Assembly: GCF_000179575.2 (NCBI RefSeq)
Contig: NC_015636.1
Coordinates: 1,217,495 to 1,281,494 of the forward strand
From: Methanothermococcus okinawensis IH1
Lineage (GTDB): Archaea; AGJL01; Methanococci; Methanococcales; Methanococcaceae
Length of the DNA: 64,000 bases
Direction of reading: 5' to 3'
Part shown: positions 42,241-52,929 of the stretch, one piece after another
Position numbering within the stretch: position 1 is the first letter of the stretch
Layout of the letters: each line of letters opens with the position of its first letter
Program-made: the position numbers and the translations under genes
Notes under the pieces: model-generated
Database searches by the model: none
Told to the model about the DNA's origin: nothing
Seen by the model: only the letters and a program-made list of their open reading frames with translations

Positions 42241-43506
42241 TTATTGAAGTTTGACATAATATTTTAAATCATTATCTCCATTAGGAAATAATTCTGGATG
42301 AACCATTTTAGCGTAGTCTTCCATAGTTCCGATAGGGTCTTTTGCCTCCCATATATAGTAATCAGGTTTTGAAACATAGAATCTTCCAGTTTTATATGCT
42401 TTAAAGTTTTCAAAGCCTGAATTTGGATACCTATTTAGTAAATCCTGTTTTGTTTTTATATCCTTGCACTGTCTTAATATCACTACATCGGCATTTGAAG
42501 CCCTTTCCATAAATGTTTCAGTATCTATCTTTTCGGAGCCTGTTCCTGGCAAATCATTAAATGCATAATCTCCTCTAAAATTGTTTATTAATTTACTGTA
42601 ATAATTCTGTGCCTCTGGAATATATGGGGTGCTTGTATCGCTGTATTTCCAGAAATTAACAACTTTTGGGTATTCTTTTGCATTTCTTGTAATTCTTACC
42701 AATTTATTTTTCTTTTTCCATGATGTTTGGAAATAATCATTTGCTTTGTCATATGCCGTTTTACCCCATAATGCAGCAGCATATTTTGTCCATTCTATTT
42801 TTCCCAGAAATGTGGGCCCATCATAGGCAAAAGCCCTTGAAACAGTAATTCCTAACTCGTTCAATTTAGTTTCCATTTCGTCATGCTGTGACCATGCTCC
42901 TAATACTACAATATCAGGGCTTGTGTTGATTACCACATCATACTTCATAGTAGATGATGTGCCAATATTTGCAACTTTGCCTTCATTGTATCTTTTTGAG
43001 AGCTCAGGTGAATATTTCAAGACTGAACTCGAAACTCCTTTTATACTATCATAACATGAGGAATCGTTTAATATATCTGCTGTTGAAACGATTGGACAGT
43101 AAAATATGGTATCAATGCTTTTTACAGGAACTCTTAGTATCTTTGCACCTTGTATATTTGGTGCTGTTGCATTTTCATTTACTAAAACAAATTTATGTCC
43201 TTTTGAATCCACTACATAACAGTATCCTTCATCCCAGTGAGGGTCCAATTGGAAGTTTTTAGCAAATATAACAGGTTCTCTATATTTATCGTAGTTTTTG
43301 AATAGATATACAACATCTGCAATATCAATGGAATTATCGCAGTTTAAATCTCCATCTTCGATAGGCACATTTCTATGCTTGAATAGATATACAACATCTG
43401 CAATATCTATGGAACCATCTCCATTTATATCGCCTATCTCTGTTCCCATTACTGATGGAACTAGTGATATTAATGTCAAAATAGTAAGTGTTAATATTCT
43501 TTTCAT
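42241..43506 (-). CDS. Secreted solute-binding protein with N-terminal dockerin
   Basis: 421 residues. A signal peptide (MKRILTLTILTLISLVPSVMG) is followed at residues 24-72 by two dockerin repeats, GDINGDGSIDIADVVYLFKH and GDLNCDNSIDIADVVYLFKN, with the Ca2+-binding DxNxDGxxD pattern. The rest (about 75-421) resembles the class III solute-binding proteins for Fe-siderophores, haem or cobamides (BtuF/FepB fold): SPDIVVLGAWSQHDEMETKLNELGI and IEWTKYAAALWGKTAYDKANDYF. No lipobox or membrane anchor is present and no permease is nearby, so I infer attachment by cohesin binding. Ligand unknown. Confidence 0.85.
   Translation of the reverse strand: MKRILTLTILTLISLVPSVMGTEIGDINGDGSIDIADVVYLFKHRNVPIEDGDLNCDNSIDIADVVYLFKNYDKYREPVIFAKNFQLDPHWDEGYCYVVDSKGHKFVLVNENATAPNIQGAKILRVPVKSIDTIFYCPIVSTADILNDSSCYDSIKGVSSSVLKYSPELSKRYNEGKVANIGTSSTMKYDVVINTSPDIVVLGAWSQHDEMETKLNELGITVSRAFAYDGPTFLGKIEWTKYAAALWGKTAYDKANDYFQTSWKKKNKLVRITRNAKEYPKVVNFWKYSDTSTPYIPEAQNYYSKLINNFRGDYAFNDLPGTGSEKIDTETFMERASNADVVILRQCKDIKTKQDLLNRYPNSGFENFKAYKTGRFYVSKPDYYIWEAKDPIGTMEDYAKMVHPELFPNGDNDLKYYVKLQ
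43273..43436 (-). repeat. Dockerin-coding inverted repeat, left copy
   Basis: 164 bp encoding the two dockerin repeats, matching 47532-47695 in opposite orientation with only about two mismatches by eye. The genes differ outside this block, so the block seems homogenised by recombination. Confidence 0.9.
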
Positions 43507-43726
43507 GATAACACCTTTTTTATTTATTAATAATTAGTATTATATTATTACTAAAATGATAATATTATAAAAATAGTATTTAAAATTTACTACTTATTTT
43601 TAAATAATTATTATCATATAAATATTATAAAAGAAAATTGTAATAATTATAAAATAAAATTTAATATAAAAAATATAAAAGATAAATAATAAAATATTAC
43701 ATAAAATACATAAGGAATAAGTATAA

Positions 43727-45805
43727 TTATTTAATTTTAAATCTAATCAATATAAGCCCTATCATAAATCCAAATAGAGATACAAATGAATAATATGGAG
43801 CCATATAATTATCACTTGATGTTATGGTTTTATTTATAACATAATTTTTAACAGTCTTGACTTTATTTACTTTTAACACCACCTTTGTATTATTGAGTTT
43901 AATAATTTTTGTATAATTATTTACTTTTACTTGTGGTTTGGATGTGAATTCTATCTTTTTTTCAAAATTCCATTGGTAATATCCCATCTCAACATTATAT
44001 TTTCCATTATTTTTTATAGCAGGATAATACACAACATTCCAATTAATATTGCATGATTTTGATACATTTATAGGAATAATTAGTTTTTTTGTTTCATTTG
44101 GTTTTAATGTTATATTGTACTGGGTTTTTAAAGGAGTATAATCCTTATAATCTAAAAAATTGATATATCCATTAACATTATGGGTAAGTGGATTTCTTAA
44201 TGTCATATTTAAATAAACGGTTTTATTTTTATTATCGTCTGACAAGAAAGAATCTTTTGAAAAGGAATAATTCACCACATAATATTTTTTGAGTTCTATA
44301 ATAGTCACTACTTCATCTGTTCCATTTAATGGGTCTTTAACAGTGCATTTTATTTTATATGTTGAATAATTCGAATACCTATGGATTGGATTTTCATCTG
44401 TTGAATTTTGCCCATCTCCAAAATTCCATATATATTTTAAATCATCGTTATCTTCATCATAACTCAGTGCATAAAAATGGACTTCATTGTTATTAAATAT
44501 ATTATAGGCCATTTTTAATTTTGGTGGATGATTTGTTTTTCTTTTTACAATATCTATTGTCAAATTTTTAACAGTTAGGTTTATCTTTGTATTATTGGCA
44601 TATACCGATAGATTTTTAAGATATATTGTTGAAGAAATATTTTTATCCACCTTTGGGGATATTTTAAACTTTAAAATACTAAATGTTCCATTTGTTCCAT
44701 TTATGAGGGAAATATTTAAATATAGATAATTATTGTTTAAAGTAATATTTGATGTGTTTATCGTATTATATATGTCAGAATATTCTGGAATTCCATAATC
44801 TGAAACATCAAATAAGGAATTATTTATAAAAATATATCCTGAAATATTTGTTAAATTTTTGTCAATATTAAATACTTTTAATTTAATTTCTTTTGAATGA
44901 CCAAAAGTTATATTTGTTTTTTCATTATGTCCGGAATCTACATAGAATGCCAACCCTTTATACTCTGAGATATTTTCATGTTTTTCTTCCGTTTTTATTG
45001 TTATGTTCTTGATTTGCTCCCCATTTATCATTAAATCCACTGAAATATTATAGTTAGTATCATTAACATTAATGGGTATTTTTAAAAGATTAAATATGGT
45101 TTTATTTTCGTCCTTTTCATTTGGAATAATAAAAAATGAAATATTATTATTATGTTTTACATAGCTGAAATTATTACAAAATATATCTATTAGAGTAGGA
45201 TTATTTTCTATTGTTATGTTCTTGAATGAAATGATACCTGAAATATTCTTTATAGGAGTTTTTGCCCCAGTTATAGATAAAACTGCATCGATATTTTTAT
45301 TCAGTTCAAAATCTTTCAATGCAATGATTCCTAAAGTCTGGTTTAATGGATTTATTGTTATATTTGAGTTTTTTAAAGTTATATCATAATTTACACCATT
45401 TGCATCAGATACGGAAGTTTGAGTTAAATCCACTGAATCATTTCCATCCTTTAAAGCTTTAAATGATAGGGTTGCTATTGTGAAGTTTCCGTATGGGGGG
45501 TTATTAAACCATATTAAGCTTATTTTTCCCTTAGAAATATCCACTGTTTTTAGGCTAGCAGTATTGGATGTATTGCTTAATACAATATTTGTTAAATTTA
45601 AAAGATTAGTGTTATAATGTATTTTAGTTTCAAACCCAGCACATTTTTTATCAGAAGGAATATTTTTTACAACCAAATCTAAATTAATAGTATCTCCAAC
45701 ATTGGCTGATATATTATTTGGGGTTAACTCTACGGATACATTTTCACCAAATACACCAGATATAAGAATAAAAAAAGATAAAAATAATATTATTGCATAT
45801 TTCAT
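43727..45805 (-). CDS. Cohesin-like and PKD-domain surface protein with C-terminal membrane anchor
   Basis: 692 residues. Signal peptide, then a cohesin domain (about 22-152) starting NVSVELTPNNISANVGDTIN and ending in SVSDANGVNYDI; two more divergent cohesin-like beta regions (about 155-430); a PKD domain (about 432-515, YIWNFGDGQNSTDENPIHRY); another beta domain; and a C-terminal helix (YYSFVSLFGFMIGLILIRF) with basic end. Dozens of N-x-S/T sequons suggest heavy glycosylation. Its ATG overlaps the stop of the upstream gene by 4 bp. The first cohesin is close to that of the large scaffold, so it may bind the same dockerins. Confidence 0.82.
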   Translation of the reverse strand: MKYAIILFLSFFILISGVFGENVSVELTPNNISANVGDTINLDLVVKNIPSDKKCAGFETKIHYNTNLLNLTNIVLSNTSNTASLKTVDISKGKISLIWFNNPPYGNFTIATLSFKALKDGNDSVDLTQTSVSDANGVNYDITLKNSNITINPLNQTLGIIALKDFELNKNIDAVLSITGAKTPIKNISGIISFKNITIENNPTLIDIFCNNFSYVKHNNNISFFIIPNEKDENKTIFNLLKIPINVNDTNYNISVDLMINGEQIKNITIKTEEKHENISEYKGLAFYVDSGHNEKTNITFGHSKEIKLKVFNIDKNLTNISGYIFINNSLFDVSDYGIPEYSDIYNTINTSNITLNNNYLYLNISLINGTNGTFSILKFKISPKVDKNISSTIYLKNLSVYANNTKINLTVKNLTIDIVKRKTNHPPKLKMAYNIFNNNEVHFYALSYDEDNDDLKYIWNFGDGQNSTDENPIHRYSNYSTYKIKCTVKDPLNGTDEVVTIIELKKYYVVNYSFSKDSFLSDDNKNKTVYLNMTLRNPLTHNVNGYINFLDYKDYTPLKTQYNITLKPNETKKLIIPINVSKSCNINWNVVYYPAIKNNGKYNVEMGYYQWNFEKKIEFTSKPQVKVNNYTKIIKLNNTKVVLKVNKVKTVKNYVINKTITSSDNYMAPYYSFVSLFGFMIGLILIRFKIK

Positions 45806-46668
45806 AGTATCATCCTTCTAAATATTAATCCAAATATAATTCCAGATAATATACTCCCGATAAAAATAGATATCAATAAATTATAATTTAGACTACTTTT
45901 TCCATCACTGTTTATTATAACGGTTATATTTGGCTTCTCCTCCGAAATATTTACCTCTTTTACAATAATTTCAGGCATACTTTGGTTTGTAATGATATTT
46001 ATTTTATTAATTGTTGTTGATGAAGAGGATGAAACTGTATTTTCATTTAATTCTCCATTTAAATTAGTAGAACCTGTGTAATTTCCTGTTTTTTTAATAT
46101 TTACTGTGGCTCCATAAAATTTGGTGTCGGGGTAGGGCACTTTACTACCTGATTTTCCACCATAATCAATGTAATATTGGTTATGACTATCGTATTTAAT
46201 ACCATATTCGGAGCTCACCTTACCACTAACATTTAAGTTCGTTTTTCCCTTTTTAATTGGGTTAAATACTATTGTTCCTAAGTTTATACTACTGTCGTAT
46301 ATAGGTTCATCAAACATTATGGATAAAAAAAAAGTTCCATTTTCGAAGTGATATTCCTTTATCTTAACATCCTTATATTTATCGCTCCAATTAAAACCTA
46401 TGGGGCTTAAATAATCATTTGAATAATTTATGCAAATATCTACACCTTGACATCCTCCATCTTTTATTTTTGAGTCATCATAACCTGAGGGCATACCTAA
46501 ACTTTCCTTTGGAGGTATATTTTCAACTGTAATATTAAACTTTACCAAATTTCCATCTGTTTCTATATTATCAGGAGTTAATTTTATAACTACATCATTT
46601 AATGCGAAATTTTCAGAAATTAACATCAAAAAAAGGAGAGGAATAATTAATAATTTATTCACTTTCAT
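45802..46668 (-). CDS. Cohesin-like surface protein with C-terminal membrane anchor
   Basis: 288 residues: signal peptide, one cohesin-like domain (about 23-195; VIKLTPDNIETDGNLVKFNITVENIPP, ending SSEYGIKYD), a Ser/Thr/Asn-rich stalk and a C-terminal membrane helix (LISIFIGSILSGIIFGLIF followed by RRM). The membrane-stalk arrangement would display one cohesin near the membrane. Middle gene of a three-gene leftward operon, directly abutting the gene upstream. Confidence 0.75.
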   Translation of the reverse strand: MKVNKLLIIPLLFLMLISENFALNDVVIKLTPDNIETDGNLVKFNITVENIPPKESLGMPSGYDDSKIKDGGCQGVDICINYSNDYLSPIGFNWSDKYKDVKIKEYHFENGTFFLSIMFDEPIYDSSINLGTIVFNPIKKGKTNLNVSGKVSSEYGIKYDSHNQYYIDYGGKSGSKVPYPDTKFYGATVNIKKTGNYTGSTNLNGELNENTVSSSSSTTINKINIITNQSMPEIIVKEVNISEEKPNITVIINSDGKSSLNYNLLISIFIGSILSGIIFGLIFRRMIL

Positions 46669-47241
46669 TTAACCACCAAGTATAGATTTTAAGAAATTTG
46701 TTAGGGCATTAATTAAGGATGATAAAAAATTTCTATTAGAGGAGGATTGAATATCATTTCCATTATTGCTATTATTGATTATTAATAAATTAATAGTTTT
46801 TTCATCAACAGGTATCTTTTCTCCATTTTTGTCAGAGGCTACTGCTTCAAATGTAAGCGATAAATTACCGCTTTTTAATGCTACTGCTTTTATAGTCATT
46901 AAATGAAAATCTGAATTTAAAGGCTTGTTAAAACTGATAAATTTAATAGATACTGATGAATTTTTTTTATCAATACTATAAAATTTTCCTGCTTCTTTTT
47001 TTATCTTTTCATTTCCTTTGACATTTATTATTTTAATGTAGTTTTCTTTTCCAAAGGGGGGTTTCATTGCACATTCAAAACCTGTTATATTATTAGCCAT
47101 TGGATTGACATTTACATTAATGGTAAAATTATCTCCTTCATTGACTTTGCTTGGCATATCTACATTTAAATGGATATTGTTTGCCAATACAATAGGTGTG
47201 GATAATATACACATAATAATAAATAAAATTATTTTTTTCAT
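46669..47241 (-). CDS. Small secreted cohesin-like protein
   Basis: 190 residues: signal peptide (MKKIILFIIMCILSTPIVLA) and one cohesin-like domain (about 22-150; HLNVDMPSKVNEGDNFTINVNV, ending EAVASDKNGEKIP), then a short Asn/Ser linker and an amphipathic C-terminal helix (LSSLINALTNFLKSILGG) instead of an anchor. First gene of the cohesin operon, divergent from the second dockerin gene. Assignment to cohesin rests on fold pattern and context. Confidence 0.7.
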   Translation of the reverse strand: MKKIILFIIMCILSTPIVLANNIHLNVDMPSKVNEGDNFTINVNVNPMANNITGFECAMKPPFGKENYIKIINVKGNEKIKKEAGKFYSIDKKNSSVSIKFISFNKPLNSDFHLMTIKAVALKSGNLSLTFEAVASDKNGEKIPVDEKTINLLIINNSNNGNDIQSSSNRNFLSSLINALTNFLKSILGG

Positions 47242-47428
47242 ATACCATCACCATTTCATTACTATAATTCATAATGTCCAACCATGTAATAAACATATTT
47301 TTATATAATATAAATTAAACCGTAATCTATATATAATATATCATTATTAAATTTTTCTTGTATATAACTAATAATTAATATAGATGTAATTAATAATACT
47401 ACTTTAAAAACTTTTTGGGTGAATATGT
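47242..47428. promoter_or_regulatory. Divergent promoter region between cohesin operon and dockerin gene
   Basis: A leftward TATA candidate (TTTATATAATAT read on the plus strand near 47300-47312) and a rightward one (CTATATATAATATA near 47330-47343) lie in one 187-bp gap, so the dockerin protein and its putative cohesin partners may be controlled together. Confidence 0.45.
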
Positions 47429-48784
47429 ATGTCGAAAAATATAAATACTCATCCTATGATAATACTAAGTGTATTATCTTTATTAATATGCATAACTCCA
47501 TCATTTGCAGATGGAGATTACAACCACAGATTAGGCGATATAAATGGAGATGGTTCCATAGATATTGCAGATGTTGTATATCTATTCAAGCATAGAAATG
47601 TGCCTATTGAAGATGGAGATTTAAACTGCGATAATTCCATAGATATTGCAGATGTTGTATATCTATTCAAAAACTACGATAAATATAGAGAACCTATACA
47701 TTACGCTAACGATATAAAAATTACATACTACGACAGTAATGGAAATGAAGTAAATCCATACAATGGCGATTCATACGCTTATAAAATAGTTGAAGATGCC
47801 ACAGGGCAGAAATTCTTATTAAAAAATGCATCTCAATCTATACCTTCATGGGCAAATGGAAAATATGACAAAGTAATAAATGTTCCATTAAAAAATGTAG
47901 TTGTTATGAGCTCTACACATATAGCACTAATGGAACCATTAAATACTGATGGTTCAGTAATTGCTTCCGTTAAAGGAATTATGTGGGGCGGAAAATATAA
48001 ATGGTATTTCAAAGACATTGAAGAAGGTCTTAAAAATGGTTCAATAATCGATGTTGGTTCATCATACAGTCCAAATTATGATGAAATAATAAACATATCT
48101 CCACAGGTTGTATTTGTATATCCTGGATACAGTGGTAATGGTATTATTGCAAAATGTAAAGACTTGAATATAACCTATGTGGCTGATGCAGAATATTTGG
48201 AAGATTCATATCTTGCAAGATGTGAATGGGTTAAGATGTTTGCCGCATTCTACAATAAAGAAGATGTAGCAAATAAATACTTTACAAAAGTTGAAAAAAA
48301 GGCTTTGAATGTTAGAAGATTAACAAGAGGTAAAGAACCTGTTTCAGTTGCATGGGGTTCAAAGTCATCATGGGGAACTTATGTACCTAAGGCTCAATCC
48401 TATGTGGCTAAGGCAATAATGGATGATTGTCACGGAAATTATATATTCAGTGATTATCCTGGAACAGGTAGTACTAATATAGATTATGAAACATTTGCAG
48501 AAAGAGCAAAAAGTGCTGATGTTTGGGTTGTGCCGTCATCAACAACTTGGTTATCTTCATTCAAAGATAATAACCCAGGATATGATACCTTTAAATCAGT
48601 TCAGAATGGTAGAATATTCTGTATAAGCGGAGATTATTGGCAGTTAGGACTTATGAATACTGATGAAGTATTAATGGATTTAGGAACAATCATACACCCA
48701 GATGCCTTTAAAGGAAGAACAACACATTATTTCCTTAGGTATTATCCAAATAACAATACAGCAGTTCCATACACTGCAAATTAA
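47429..48784 (+). CDS. Secreted solute-binding protein with N-terminal dockerin (paralogue)
   Basis: 451 residues. Signal peptide (MIILSVLSLLICITPSFA), the same two dockerin repeats at about residues 36-84 (identical in protein sequence to the paralogue at 42241-43506), then a BtuF/FepB-like binding domain with SPQVVFVYPGYSGNGIIAKCKDLNI, ARCEWVKMFAAFYNKEDVANKYF and GNYIFSDYPGTGSTNIDYETFAERAKSADVW. Outside the dockerin the two proteins are clearly divergent, so they may bind different ligands. GGTGA lies 6 bases before the ATG. No anchor. Confidence 0.86.
   Translation: MSKNINTHPMIILSVLSLLICITPSFADGDYNHRLGDINGDGSIDIADVVYLFKHRNVPIEDGDLNCDNSIDIADVVYLFKNYDKYREPIHYANDIKITYYDSNGNEVNPYNGDSYAYKIVEDATGQKFLLKNASQSIPSWANGKYDKVINVPLKNVVVMSSTHIALMEPLNTDGSVIASVKGIMWGGKYKWYFKDIEEGLKNGSIIDVGSSYSPNYDEIINISPQVVFVYPGYSGNGIIAKCKDLNITYVADAEYLEDSYLARCEWVKMFAAFYNKEDVANKYFTKVEKKALNVRRLTRGKEPVSVAWGSKSSWGTYVPKAQSYVAKAIMDDCHGNYIFSDYPGTGSTNIDYETFAERAKSADVWVVPSSTTWLSSFKDNNPGYDTFKSVQNGRIFCISGDYWQLGLMNTDEVLMDLGTIIHPDAFKGRTTHYFLRYYPNNNTAVPYTAN
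47532..47695 (+). repeat. Dockerin-coding inverted repeat, right copy
   Basis: Partner of 43273-43436. The two copies face each other across about 4.1 kb that holds the three cohesin genes. Confidence 0.9.
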
Positions 48785-48867: not shown

Positions 48868-51800
48868 ATGAAGTGGAAGTTTTTTACACTCTCAGTTTTG
48901 ATGATTTCATTAATTGGGATGTGTTATGCAGAAAATGTATCCGTAGAGTTAATCCCAAATAATATATCAGCCAATGTTGGAGATACTATTAATTTAGATT
49001 TGATTGTAAAAAATGTGCCAGATAACTTAAAATGTGAAGGTTTTGAAACATATATTTATTATAATTCAAGTATGTTGAATATATCAAAGAACGATGTTGT
49101 TTTAAAAGATGTATCCGGAAGCATAAGCAAAGAAAATATAACTGTATCTAATGGAGAAATTTGGATTTCATTATGGTTTAGTAAAGATTTTTCAGGTAAT
49201 TTTACCATAGCAGCCTTATCATTTAAGGCATTAAATGAGGGAACTGGAAATGTATCACTCCACAATACTGTTGTATCTGATGCAAATGGACAGCATATTG
49301 AGGATAATCCTAACATATCATTAGTTCTTAAAAACTCAAATATGGATATAATTATCAAACCCATAGCTGATATAATAACTCCTAAAATTGCAAATAGTGA
49401 GCTCGGAGAGAATATAACTATTCCTATAATTATATCACCAAAAGAAAATGAAACTATAAATGAAATTTGTGGAACTTTAAGTTATGATAAAACAATAGTG
49501 AATCCTGTTAATTTATCATCAAGTGATGGAATAGTTTCATTTAATATATCAAATGGATTCTTTAAAATAGAAAATATTAATAAATCATCAAATTTCACAA
49601 TAAATGTCACTTATAATGTAATAAATGTAGGATCTACTGCAACTCAGTTAAGAGATGTTGCAATTAAAGATATTGAAAATTACAGTGTCGTTAAAAATTC
49701 TGATATTATAAATATTTACATCCCTGGACCGGATCTGGTAATTACTAATATCTCAATACCCTGCTTAAAATCATATCAAGACAATATAATACCAATCACT
49801 GTCAAAAATATTGGAGAAAGAAACATTTCAAATAATTTCACAGTTACATTATATATGGATGCTAATGAAATTGGTAAAAAGACAGTAAATGGATTAACTA
49901 TTGGAAAAACAAAAACTACAAACTTTACATTTATGCCTTTGGATAATAAAAACTACACCCTAGTTGCAGTTGTTGATTCATCTGGAAAAATAAAAGAAAC
50001 TAATGAAACCAATAATAAATATGTAAAAATTGTTGAAGCAGTTGAACAACCTATTTCACTAAACTTAGTTCCATCGACAAACTTAACAAAAACAGGCGAA
50101 ACATTTACAGTAGATATTAAATTGAACAACATAACTGATAAAAGACCTGCTAAGGGCATAGATGGAGTTTTAACTTATGATTCAAAAGTATTAAACTGCA
50201 CAAACTTTACATTCTCAATAAATGCATCAGAAAACCTTAAAAATATAACATTTAAAAATGGAAAGGTATTATTTAGTATAATGGATGGAAATATAACCAA
50301 ACCAACTGTTATAGGTAGAGCAACCTTTAAAGCAATAAATGTAGGTAACTCAAACATAGGATTAGAAAATGTCGTTGTTTCAGATATAAATGGATACAAA
50401 TTTAATAAGATATTTATATATCCAAAAACAATGACTGTTGAGGGTCCAGATGCGTATATTAAAAATATATCCGTTGAAAATCCATATTATTTAGAACCTG
50501 CAATAGTTAAAGTTGAAGTATCTAATAAAGGACATGCGGATTCAACAGAAACTTTTGATGTCCATTTATATGTGGATTCAAATGACTTAGGAACAAAAAC
50601 AGTAAATAATTTATCAATTGGAAAAACAAAAACCATATCATTTAATTGGATACCACAAGATAAAAAGAACTATACAATTGTAGCTTTAATAAATCCAACA
50701 GTTGATGAGAATGTATCAAATAATAAATTAGTTAAAAAAGTGATGATAGTTGAACAACCTATTTCATTAAACTTAGTTCCATCGACAAACTTAACAAAAA
50801 CAGGCGAAACATTTACAGTAGATATTAAATTGAACAACATAACTGATAAAAGACCTGCTAAGGGTATAGATGGAGTTTTAACTTATGATTCAAAAATATT
50901 GGAATGCACAAACGTTACATTCTCAATAAATGCATCAGAAAACCTTAAAAATATAACATTCGAAAATGGAAAGGTATTATTTAGCATAATGGATGGAAAT
51001 ATAACCAAACCAACTGTTATAGGTAAAGCAACCTTTAAAGCACTGGATGTTGGAAACTCAGAAATTGGATTATGTGGAGTTGCGGTATCGGATATAAACG
51101 GATACAAATTTAATAATGTAATTACTACTCCGAAAACTGTTGTAGTTCAAGGACCAAATATTAAAATTACAAGTATAGATGTTTCAAATCCATCATTATA
51201 CAGAGCACCTACTACAATAAATATAACAATAACCAATAATGGTCATCAGGATATTATAAACAAGTCATTTGATGTTCATTTATATGTAGATTCAAATGAT
51301 TTAGGAACAAAAACAGTAAATAATTTGTTAATTGGGGAAACAAAAACTTTATCATTTAATTGGACACCAACAGATATTAAAACATATACAGTTGTTGCAA
51401 TAGCAGATAAATTCAATGCTGTTAAAGAAGAAAACGAAAGCGATAATAAGTTGGTTAAGAAGGTGAATGTTGTTGAAGAACCTGTTTGGCTAAAATTATA
51501 CAACAGATCTGAATCTAATGGAACCATAACGGCATCTATTGATGTAGACTCCATAAATCCTAAAAGACCTTGCAGTGGTTATGACCTTGGCTTAACCTTA
51601 AAAAATGTTGAAATTTTAAATATAAGTGGAATTGGTACATGTTATTGGAATCTAACTAATGGCAGTTTATTTGTAAGTGGATACAACTTCTCAAAATCTG
51701 GAAAATTCAATATTGGAAATATAACATTTAAAGTTATTAATAAAAATGATACCTCTTACTTGATAATAAAACATGCAGTATTGTCAGATTGGAAGGGGTA

Positions 51801-52929
51801 TAAATTTAAGAGAATATTCCTAAACAATACAATTACAACTAAAACAATAAATGAAGCATTAAAATCCATTAATATGGATTCTAAAGTATGGAATCTAACT
51901 GAATTAGATAAGATAGATATAATCTCTGAAAGCTTTAATATAACAGTAGTTCCAATAGAAAATGATACTCTTAGAATACCTATCTTAGAAAATATATCCA
52001 TAAACCTTACTGAAGAAAATGTTGAGACTTTGGAAGAGGTTAAACAAAAAGCTACTGAATTTAACAATATTAAAATTGAAAATGAAAATGATATATATAA
52101 AATAATAAATAATACGGAAATCAAACCTATCGTAAATACAGGATTTAACATAACAAATATAACAAAGGAAACTAAAAAAGAAAACAATAAAGTGATATCT
52201 TCAATTAAATTTAATGTAACAAACACATCAACTAAGGGACTTTCGATAACAAGAATTCCAATAGGTCCTTTAAATGTTGAAGGTATAACTGTAAATAATG
52301 GAACAAAAAACATAACCTTAAAAGAAAATGATTATTCCAGTAAAATAGGATGGTATACAATACCAACTAAGGGGGTATTAGAAATAACCTTAGTTAAGGA
52401 CCCTGAAGTAAATGTTATATTATCTGCCACACTTCCATCAATAACTACAACATATTACAGTGGAGGTGGTGGAAGCCACCATATGACGATAAAAACTTAT
52501 TCAGATGTAGCACAAGATATTAAATCAGAAAAGATTAAAGAAATCGTTCATAACTACAAATTAATATTAGGTTCAGAAATTGACAATAACATGTCAGCAA
52601 AACATCTTAAAAACACATCAGAATTAATAAATAAACCATTGGAAATAAAAGAAGACTGTATATTAATAGGAGGTCCAGTAGCTAACCCATTGGTTAAAAA
52701 ATTCCTCTGGACATTCCCAGTTAAAGTAACAAATGATTACCCAGGAGCTCATATGGGAGTCATCCAAAAACAGATAATAAACGGACATAATGTAATATTA
52801 TTGGCAGGTTCAGATAGATACGGAACAAAAGCAGCAGTAGAATACTTTAAAACATTGGATGATATTCCATCAGAACCTATATTCGTAGAATGGAAAGATA
52901 ACAAAGCAATTAAAATAAATAAACCTTAA
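48868..52929 (+). CDS. Multi-cohesin S-layer scaffold protein
   Basis: 1353 residues. Order: signal peptide 1-21; cohesin 1 (22-162); divergent cohesin-like 2 (165-286); CARDB-like 1 (287-392); cohesin 3 (394-526); CARDB 2 (525-626); cohesin 4 (630-761); CARDB 3 (762-870); cohesin-like 5 (872-995); a mostly helical linker; a beta domain; a GGGGS hinge near 1199; and a C-terminal S-layer domain (ILIGGPVANPLVKKF; LAGSDRYGTKAAVEYFK). Methanococcal S-layer proteins share this C-terminus, so the scaffold should be embedded in the cell wall. Many N-glycosylation sequons. GGTGATACC precedes the ATG. I infer that it holds dockerin-tagged solute-binding proteins. Confidence 0.85.
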   Translation: MKWKFFTLSVLMISLIGMCYAENVSVELIPNNISANVGDTINLDLIVKNVPDNLKCEGFETYIYYNSSMLNISKNDVVLKDVSGSISKENITVSNGEIWISLWFSKDFSGNFTIAALSFKALNEGTGNVSLHNTVVSDANGQHIEDNPNISLVLKNSNMDIIIKPIADIITPKIANSELGENITIPIIISPKENETINEICGTLSYDKTIVNPVNLSSSDGIVSFNISNGFFKIENINKSSNFTINVTYNVINVGSTATQLRDVAIKDIENYSVVKNSDIINIYIPGPDLVITNISIPCLKSYQDNIIPITVKNIGERNISNNFTVTLYMDANEIGKKTVNGLTIGKTKTTNFTFMPLDNKNYTLVAVVDSSGKIKETNETNNKYVKIVEAVEQPISLNLVPSTNLTKTGETFTVDIKLNNITDKRPAKGIDGVLTYDSKVLNCTNFTFSINASENLKNITFKNGKVLFSIMDGNITKPTVIGRATFKAINVGNSNIGLENVVVSDINGYKFNKIFIYPKTMTVEGPDAYIKNISVENPYYLEPAIVKVEVSNKGHADSTETFDVHLYVDSNDLGTKTVNNLSIGKTKTISFNWIPQDKKNYTIVALINPTVDENVSNNKLVKKVMIVEQPISLNLVPSTNLTKTGETFTVDIKLNNITDKRPAKGIDGVLTYDSKILECTNVTFSINASENLKNITFENGKVLFSIMDGNITKPTVIGKATFKALDVGNSEIGLCGVAVSDINGYKFNNVITTPKTVVVQGPNIKITSIDVSNPSLYRAPTTINITITNNGHQDIINKSFDVHLYVDSNDLGTKTVNNLLIGETKTLSFNWTPTDIKTYTVVAIADKFNAVKEENESDNKLVKKVNVVEEPVWLKLYNRSESNGTITASIDVDSINPKRPCSGYDLGLTLKNVEILNISGIGTCYWNLTNGSLFVSGYNFSKSGKFNIGNITFKVINKNDTSYLIIKHAVLSDWKGYKFKRIFLNNTITTKTINEALKSINMDSKVWNLTELDKIDIISESFNITVVPIENDTLRIPILENISINLTEENVETLEEVKQKATEFNNIKIENENDIYKIINNTEIKPIVNTGFNITNITKETKKENNKVISSIKFNVTNTSTKGLSITRIPIGPLNVEGITVNNGTKNITLKENDYSSKIGWYTIPTKGVLEITLVKDPEVNVILSATLPSITTTYYSGGGGSHHMTIKTYSDVAQDIKSEKIKEIVHNYKLILGSEIDNNMSAKHLKNTSELINKPLEIKEDCILIGGPVANPLVKKFLWTFPVKVTNDYPGAHMGVIQKQIINGHNVILLAGSDRYGTKAAVEYFKTLDDIPSEPIFVEWKDNKAIKINKP
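50041..51470 (+). repeat. Internal duplication in the scaffold gene
   Basis: Cohesin 3 (from 50041) and cohesin 4 (from 50749) are about 90 percent identical at DNA level with a 708-bp period. The CARDB units at about 50553 and 51269 are also close, with a period of about 714 bp. A recent in-gene duplication of a cohesin-CARDB module explains this. Confidence 0.85.

Follow-up and report, generated by a model that had tools for sequence, protein, structure and literature searches.

How can two genes whose products are largely dissimilar carry, close to their starts, a stretch of DNA that is almost the same letter for letter, and what keeps it so? The question is raised by a locus of the heat-loving methanogenic archaeon Methanothermococcus okinawensis IH1, situated in a stretch of 64,000 nucleotides (contig NC_015636.1, positions 1,217,495 to 1,281,494) that was analysed as a whole and is called the window here; locus coordinates count from its first base. 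A first-pass annotation had described inverted copies about two bases apart at 43273-43436 and 47532-47695, in two genes otherwise diverged, and had offered either gene conversion or an invertible surface switch as explanation. Both descriptions were confirmed: the arms are identical at 162 of 164 positions, and the bodies of the two genes, A and E, share 31% of protein and 49% of DNA positions over 330 aligned codons. Our comparison of sequences indicates that the inverted repeat is the dockerin of two binding-protein genes and that it is very probably kept alike by recurrent gene conversion limited to this domain. The locus is composed as follows.

42241-43506, minus strand: gene A, substrate-binding protein with N-terminal dockerin, 421 aa (Peripla_BP_2 above cut-off)
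43273-43436, minus strand: left arm of the repeat, the gene A dockerin, 162/164 identical to the right arm
43727-45805, minus strand: gene B, N-terminal cohesin and PKD domain, 692 aa (PKD above cut-off; cohesin above cut-off in the genome search)
45588-45745, minus strand: nested repeat arm, cohesin 1 of B (82% with 48931-49088)
45802-46668, minus strand: gene C, 288 aa, cohesin-like by weak similarity, without Pfam match
46669-47241, minus strand: gene D, 190 aa, weak cohesin match (Cohesin below cut-off)
47242-47428, no strand: divergent intergenic region between D and E, which would switch sides on inversion
47429-48784, plus strand: gene E, substrate-binding protein with N-terminal dockerin, 451 aa (Peripla_BP_2 above cut-off)
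47532-47695, plus strand: right arm of the repeat, the gene E dockerin by profile and model, 162/164 identical to the left arm
47534-47589, plus strand: half 1 of the E dockerin, first Ca-binding-type loop and helix (direct repeat, 88% with half 2)
47615-47670, plus strand: half 2 of the E dockerin (direct repeat with half 1; the halves covary)
48868-52929, plus strand: gene F, three cohesin stretches, CARDB repeats and S_layer_C domain, 1353 aa (domain matches)
48931-49088, plus strand: nested repeat arm, cohesin 1 of F (82% repeat match; cohesin fold modelled from 48928-49332)

The repeat finder returned the two arms as a 164-nt pair with 99% complementarity and a spacing of 4095 nt. The match ends abruptly at both edges, and its two differences, ATC/ATT and ATT/ATA in isoleucine codons, are both silent, so that the 54-codon dockerins of A and E are 100% identical in protein and 98.8% in DNA. 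Among inverted repeats longer than 75 nt, the 64-kb window holds these arms and one nested pair (45588-45745 / 48931-49088; 158 nt, 82%) and no others. The remaining listed inverted pairs measure 50-75 nt at 70-79% and are mostly AT-rich, except for two half-dockerin cross-matches of the same dockerin arms.

As judged from its loop-helix pattern in sequence and model, the module shared by A and E is a type I-like dockerin, although Pfam Dockerin_1 gave 14.9 and 19.3 bits in the two proteins, under the cut-off of 22.9. A profile built from 27 dockerin rows, in which G, D and N positions are invariant and two Ca-binding-type loops are each followed by a helix, matched solved dockerins from 1.8e-5. 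An AlphaFold2 model of the dockerin (pLDDT 88) has helices at 16-24 and 43-56, and the best 25 Foldseek rows obtained with it were all dockerins (best E 0.015, none below 0.001). On the partner side, a genome search placed PF00963 cohesin above cut-off once in B and three times in F, and a model of the first F cohesin, F1 (48928-49332; pLDDT 89), found cohesins from E 6.3e-8, including the Archaeoglobus cohesin 2xdh. Relatives of C in L037, L068 and L058 match the cohesin profile. An NCBIfam search returned no informative name.

Since Pfam Dockerin_1 exceeded its cut-off in the genome only at 491 kb, further dockerins were sought by sequence. Four Peripla_BP_2 proteins and four copies of the window-type dockerin were obtained, residing in the same genes: A and E, and a tandem pair at 955 kb (L067:5636-8257; 955.6-958.3 kb on contig C2). 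In this tandem pair, a stretch of 308 nt that runs from the leader through the dockerin into the body differs at 2 positions, and the second gene has an in-frame TAG within its body. The region at 490.7-498.6 kb of C2 (L001, L102, L103) combines Dockerin_1 above cut-off with cohesin matches and shows at most 28% relation to the window dockerin. An additional cohesin of the B1/F1 type (first cohesins of B and F; E 6.5e-41) lies at 1661580-1661927, near the end of the chromosome contig and far from the locus.

What could such proteins do together? The cohesins of B, D and F, perhaps also that of C, are the putative docking sites of the A and E dockerins. In this way several binding proteins would be retained at the envelope to serve one FecCD-type transporter, and sharing a dockerin would keep them interchangeable on the same scaffold. 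FecCD permease matches in the genome number only two, at 828-830 kb. In the relative G027, two FecCD permeases and an ABC ATPase are bordered by relatives of A and E that lack a dockerin; in G026 it is an ABC ATPase and a CobN-type chelatase that E and its partner border. These neighbourhoods suggest a putative role in metal or corrinoid uptake.

The history of the repeat was followed in 36 genomes of Methanococcales, M. okinawensis (G000) included, with one genome per species for orientation. A related binding protein is present in 33 of the 36, and the dockerin profile and the cohesin profile each match 25. From the extracted loci, 50 dockerin copies were taken; dockerin and body trees were computed without six of them (two each from G017, G020 and G021), the body tree also without three more short bodies, and a smaller set for AU tests of the dockerin comprised 23 of the 50.

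In four genomes A and E stand in inverted orientation on either side of B-C-D; here the identity of the E dockerin to that of A in the same genome is 0.988 in G000, 0.994 in G031, 0.938 in G012 and 0.901 in G010. Among the dockerin residues shared by each pair, identical codons amount to 52/54, 53/54, 48/51 and 40/51, respectively; of the residues of their bodies, 29-36% are common. Between orthologs (G000 versus G003 and G012), identity of the E dockerin is at most 0.83, although the bodies are 83-88% identical. In the fragmented assembly G003 the E dockerin and its partner reach 0.957. Paralogs are thus closer than orthologs in G000, G003, G010, G012 and G031. This does not hold for E and its partner in G004-G007, G014, G016, G023, G025, G026, G030, G034 and G035: identity is 0.66-0.67 in G026 and G030, which are inverted and linked with another partner type, and 0.73-0.80 in the direct-linked G016, G023 and G025 and in the separate G004-G007, G014, G034 and G035. 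The copies of G005 lie 298 kb apart on one contig, those of the other six separate genomes on different contigs.

The trees disagree accordingly. The dockerin tree joins A with E in G000, G010, G012 and G031 (four supports: 98/89, 100/100, 100/98, 99/99) and the E dockerin of G003 with its contig-end copy (93/72). The E bodies, 20 in all, make up a single clade of the body tree, where every pairing of an A with an E body is rejected by the AU test (p ≤ 1.7e-5); for the dockerins, the test rejects a clade composed of the E copies of G000, G012, G031 and G010, and likewise G000+G003. By this sequence evidence, bodies follow gene type and these dockerins follow the genome. Tandem dockerin partners at other loci are also identical, at 955 kb in G000 and in G014. 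In the smaller tree, the E and A dockerins of G004-G007 form one group and the G014 E dockerin joins the G014 A dockerin; the larger tree disagrees. Within genes, the two dockerin halves covary: in 22 E genes their core DNA identity is 0.886 versus 0.763 when shuffled (0/5000 shuffles as high), and in 18 A/X genes 0.844 versus 0.781 for DNA, with no excess for protein (p 0.33).

Bodies and leaders keep their sides and dockerins follow the genome, so the dockerin appears to have been copied with its flanks staying in place, which is what domain-limited gene conversion would produce. The most likely course is that a dockerin struck by a break or a stalled fork would be restored with the second copy as template, be it on the same or a sister chromosome. 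Such recombinational repair would overwrite one copy without a lasting crossover and would leave leader, promoter and ligand-binding body unmoved; the conversion tract could not extend further because the flanks no longer match. According to the accessible part of PMC4056108, which cites Hildenbrand 2011, gene conversion equalises genome copies in methanogens and Haloferax.

But could a single recent replacement or duplication of the dockerin, restricted to this species, not explain the repeat just as well? Sharp edges and nearly identical copies in G000 would be expected from it as well. In most relatives, however, both gene types carry a dockerin at this position, so that such an event must have overwritten a dockerin already there, and the within-genome pairing is observed separately in G000, G003, G010, G012 and G031, with identities of 0.90-0.99 and differing tract ends. 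The matching tract measures 164 nt in G000, 165 nt in G031 and 146 nt in G012, as separate events would give. We therefore regard a single event as quite improbable.

Selection alone, under which the dockerin proteins would be held alike by binding the same cohesins and no DNA would be copied, is highly improbable. Protein selection does not keep silent sites, and the codon counts of G000 and G031 exceed the identity between orthologs; moreover, none of the 10 pairs that are not inverted and linked reaches 0.90. Selection nevertheless has points in its favour. In 11 genomes with non-homogenised pairs, protein identity within the genome is 0.743 versus 0.678 with shuffled partners, and dockerin and cohesin occur together in 24 of the 36 genomes and are both absent from 10 (Fisher p 4.6e-7, kinship ignored). 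Two genomes depart from this pattern: G019 has the dockerin alone and G001 the cohesin alone, the latter a 64% complete assembly in which the match to E begins at the first base of its contig. As the small excess in non-homogenised pairs indicates that shared selection by cohesin adds something, our comparison suggests that, next to gene conversion, selection for a shared cohesin acts as a weaker force. Dockerin-free relatives of A and E were seen in L075, L076, L077 and L048 (G029, G027, G028 and G033) and in L083 and L084 (G024), all from genomes without a cohesin profile match.

The other explanation of the first-pass annotation was a switch. In this reading one arm would recombine with the other, a segment of about 4.1 kb would be turned round, the two genes would trade promoter and signal peptide, and cells would alternate between both states. 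The geometry was described correctly. The arms are inverted, flank a promoter-bearing segment and are in frame, and a crossover would therefore leave both genes intact. The inversion would place D beside the body of A; D stands head to head with the body of E in 17/17 loci where both are visible (window included), and the comparison of relatives thus revealed one orientation and no inverted state. The leaders keep their sides as well: the E-type residues just before the dockerin were present in 26/26 E bodies and in 0/23 other bodies, with one of 50 rows lacking a visible leader. Exchange of promoter or signal peptide was sought in the relatives and none was found. In the fixed states observed, promoter and signal peptide stayed where they were, whatever moved the dockerin. 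A search for two recombinase families, phage integrase and resolvase, gave no match inside the window, and homologous recombination would need no dedicated recombinase; in the whole genome the resolvase family was not found and the phage-integrase family only at 310-394 kb of C2 and on C1. Finally, the system is present with other pair arrangements in 10 of the 16 scored genomes. Hence, of the two explanations offered, gene conversion is favoured by discordant trees, silent sites and intact flanks, and a switch is highly unlikely given orientation and leaders. The sap S-layer inversion of Campylobacter fetus likewise has shared coding homology near the 5' end of the surface-protein genes, but there inverted states occur and one promoter serves several genes; at the present locus no inverted state was found and both genes keep their own leaders. 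One relative, G018 (L085), has A-B-C-D and F in the usual orientation and no E between D and F.

A chance repeat is ruled out by the rarity of long inverted repeats across the 64-kb window, and an assembly error is unlikely because the arms differ at two bases and relatives share the pattern.

If gene conversion equalises the dockerins, does the arrangement of the copies matter? Identity of at least 0.90 was reached in 4/6 genomes with inverted, linked copies versus 0/10 with other arrangements (Fisher p 0.008), in 4/5 inverted-linked genomes when the near-identical G026 and G030 are merged (p 0.004), and in 4/4 versus 0/5 when A-type partners only are counted (p 0.008). G003 was left out of the count because its contigs break at the dockerin. 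Collapsing the related G004-G007 to one weakens the comparison (4/4 versus 0/2; p 0.067), and the arrangement effect seen in these sequences is therefore suggestive and linked to the kinship of the genomes.

The nested inverted repeat is formed by the first cohesins of B and F, and these, too, are homogenised in 4 of the 13 genomes having both (one short cohesin, from G011, was left out): G008 (0.978, 116/118 codons), G003 (0.932, 94/102), G031 (0.904, 100/102) and G010 (0.862, 84/97). They are not homogenised in G000 (0.691), G012 (0.656) or another 7/13; G014 pairs weakly in the cohesin tree. One might speculate that the nested inverted repeats, dockerins outside and cohesins inside, form a conversion-competent layout that homogenises both recognition partners per species, an idea we consider rather unlikely. 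If true, species would drift to private cohesin-dockerin codes with their own binding proteins interchangeable, and the layout would be kept for permitting conversion.

How does the proposed conversion relate to known systems? For mtrA of the same order, domain-limited concerted evolution is described in the accessible text of PMC4632066. Both cases are alike in that conversion would be confined to one common domain of two paralogs, with the other domain differing, and would recur over the order; a benefit for protein complexes is suggested by the mtrA authors. In that text the converted part is a catalytic domain within one operon; here, it is a docking domain of two surface proteins inverted around cohesin genes, and cohesins are also homogenised in some species, unlike in the mtrA case. 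Recurrent concerted evolution in prokaryotes was reported for 26 genes, with silent-site identity as a mark of conversion (PMC6053082); as in our comparison, same-genome paralogs are closer than orthologs, silent sites included, and dockerins are not mentioned in the accessible part of that paper. A search that left most subscription journals outside found no literature relevantly linking dockerins and gene conversion, and none on an M. okinawensis dockerin. New here is the probable extension of known domain-limited conversion to dockerins; in some species both members of the presumed binding pair would be involved. The locus would thereby offer a compact natural case in which a module for protein-protein recognition undergoes repair-driven copying throughout an archaeal order, and for which inverted, direct and unlinked arrangements are built-in comparisons.

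Dockerin-bearing binding proteins of ABC transporters and multi-cohesin proteins have also been reported from ANME archaea; as far as the accessible part of PMC9012536 goes, that work cites the older view of archaea as being without multi-cohesin scaffoldins. The likeness lies in dockerin substrate-binding proteins together with multi-cohesin proteins in methane archaea; the ANME binding proteins are of the NikA/OppA and TroA types, those described here belong to Peripla_BP_2, and gene conversion is not treated in that part. The FecCD-class binding proteins of Methanococcales and a three-cohesin S-layer-type protein thus join the little-studied archaeal cohesin-dockerin systems. The latter, encoded by gene F, combines three cohesins with an S-layer domain.

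In fragmented assemblies, contig ends fall at the dockerin or within the cohesins of B and F (L037-L040 of G003; L058 of G011), as expected if these are long near-identical repeats. Gene F itself contains a direct repeat (50002-50301 / 50710-51009; 300 nt, 92%) over cohesin/CARDB units, a further homogenised pair.
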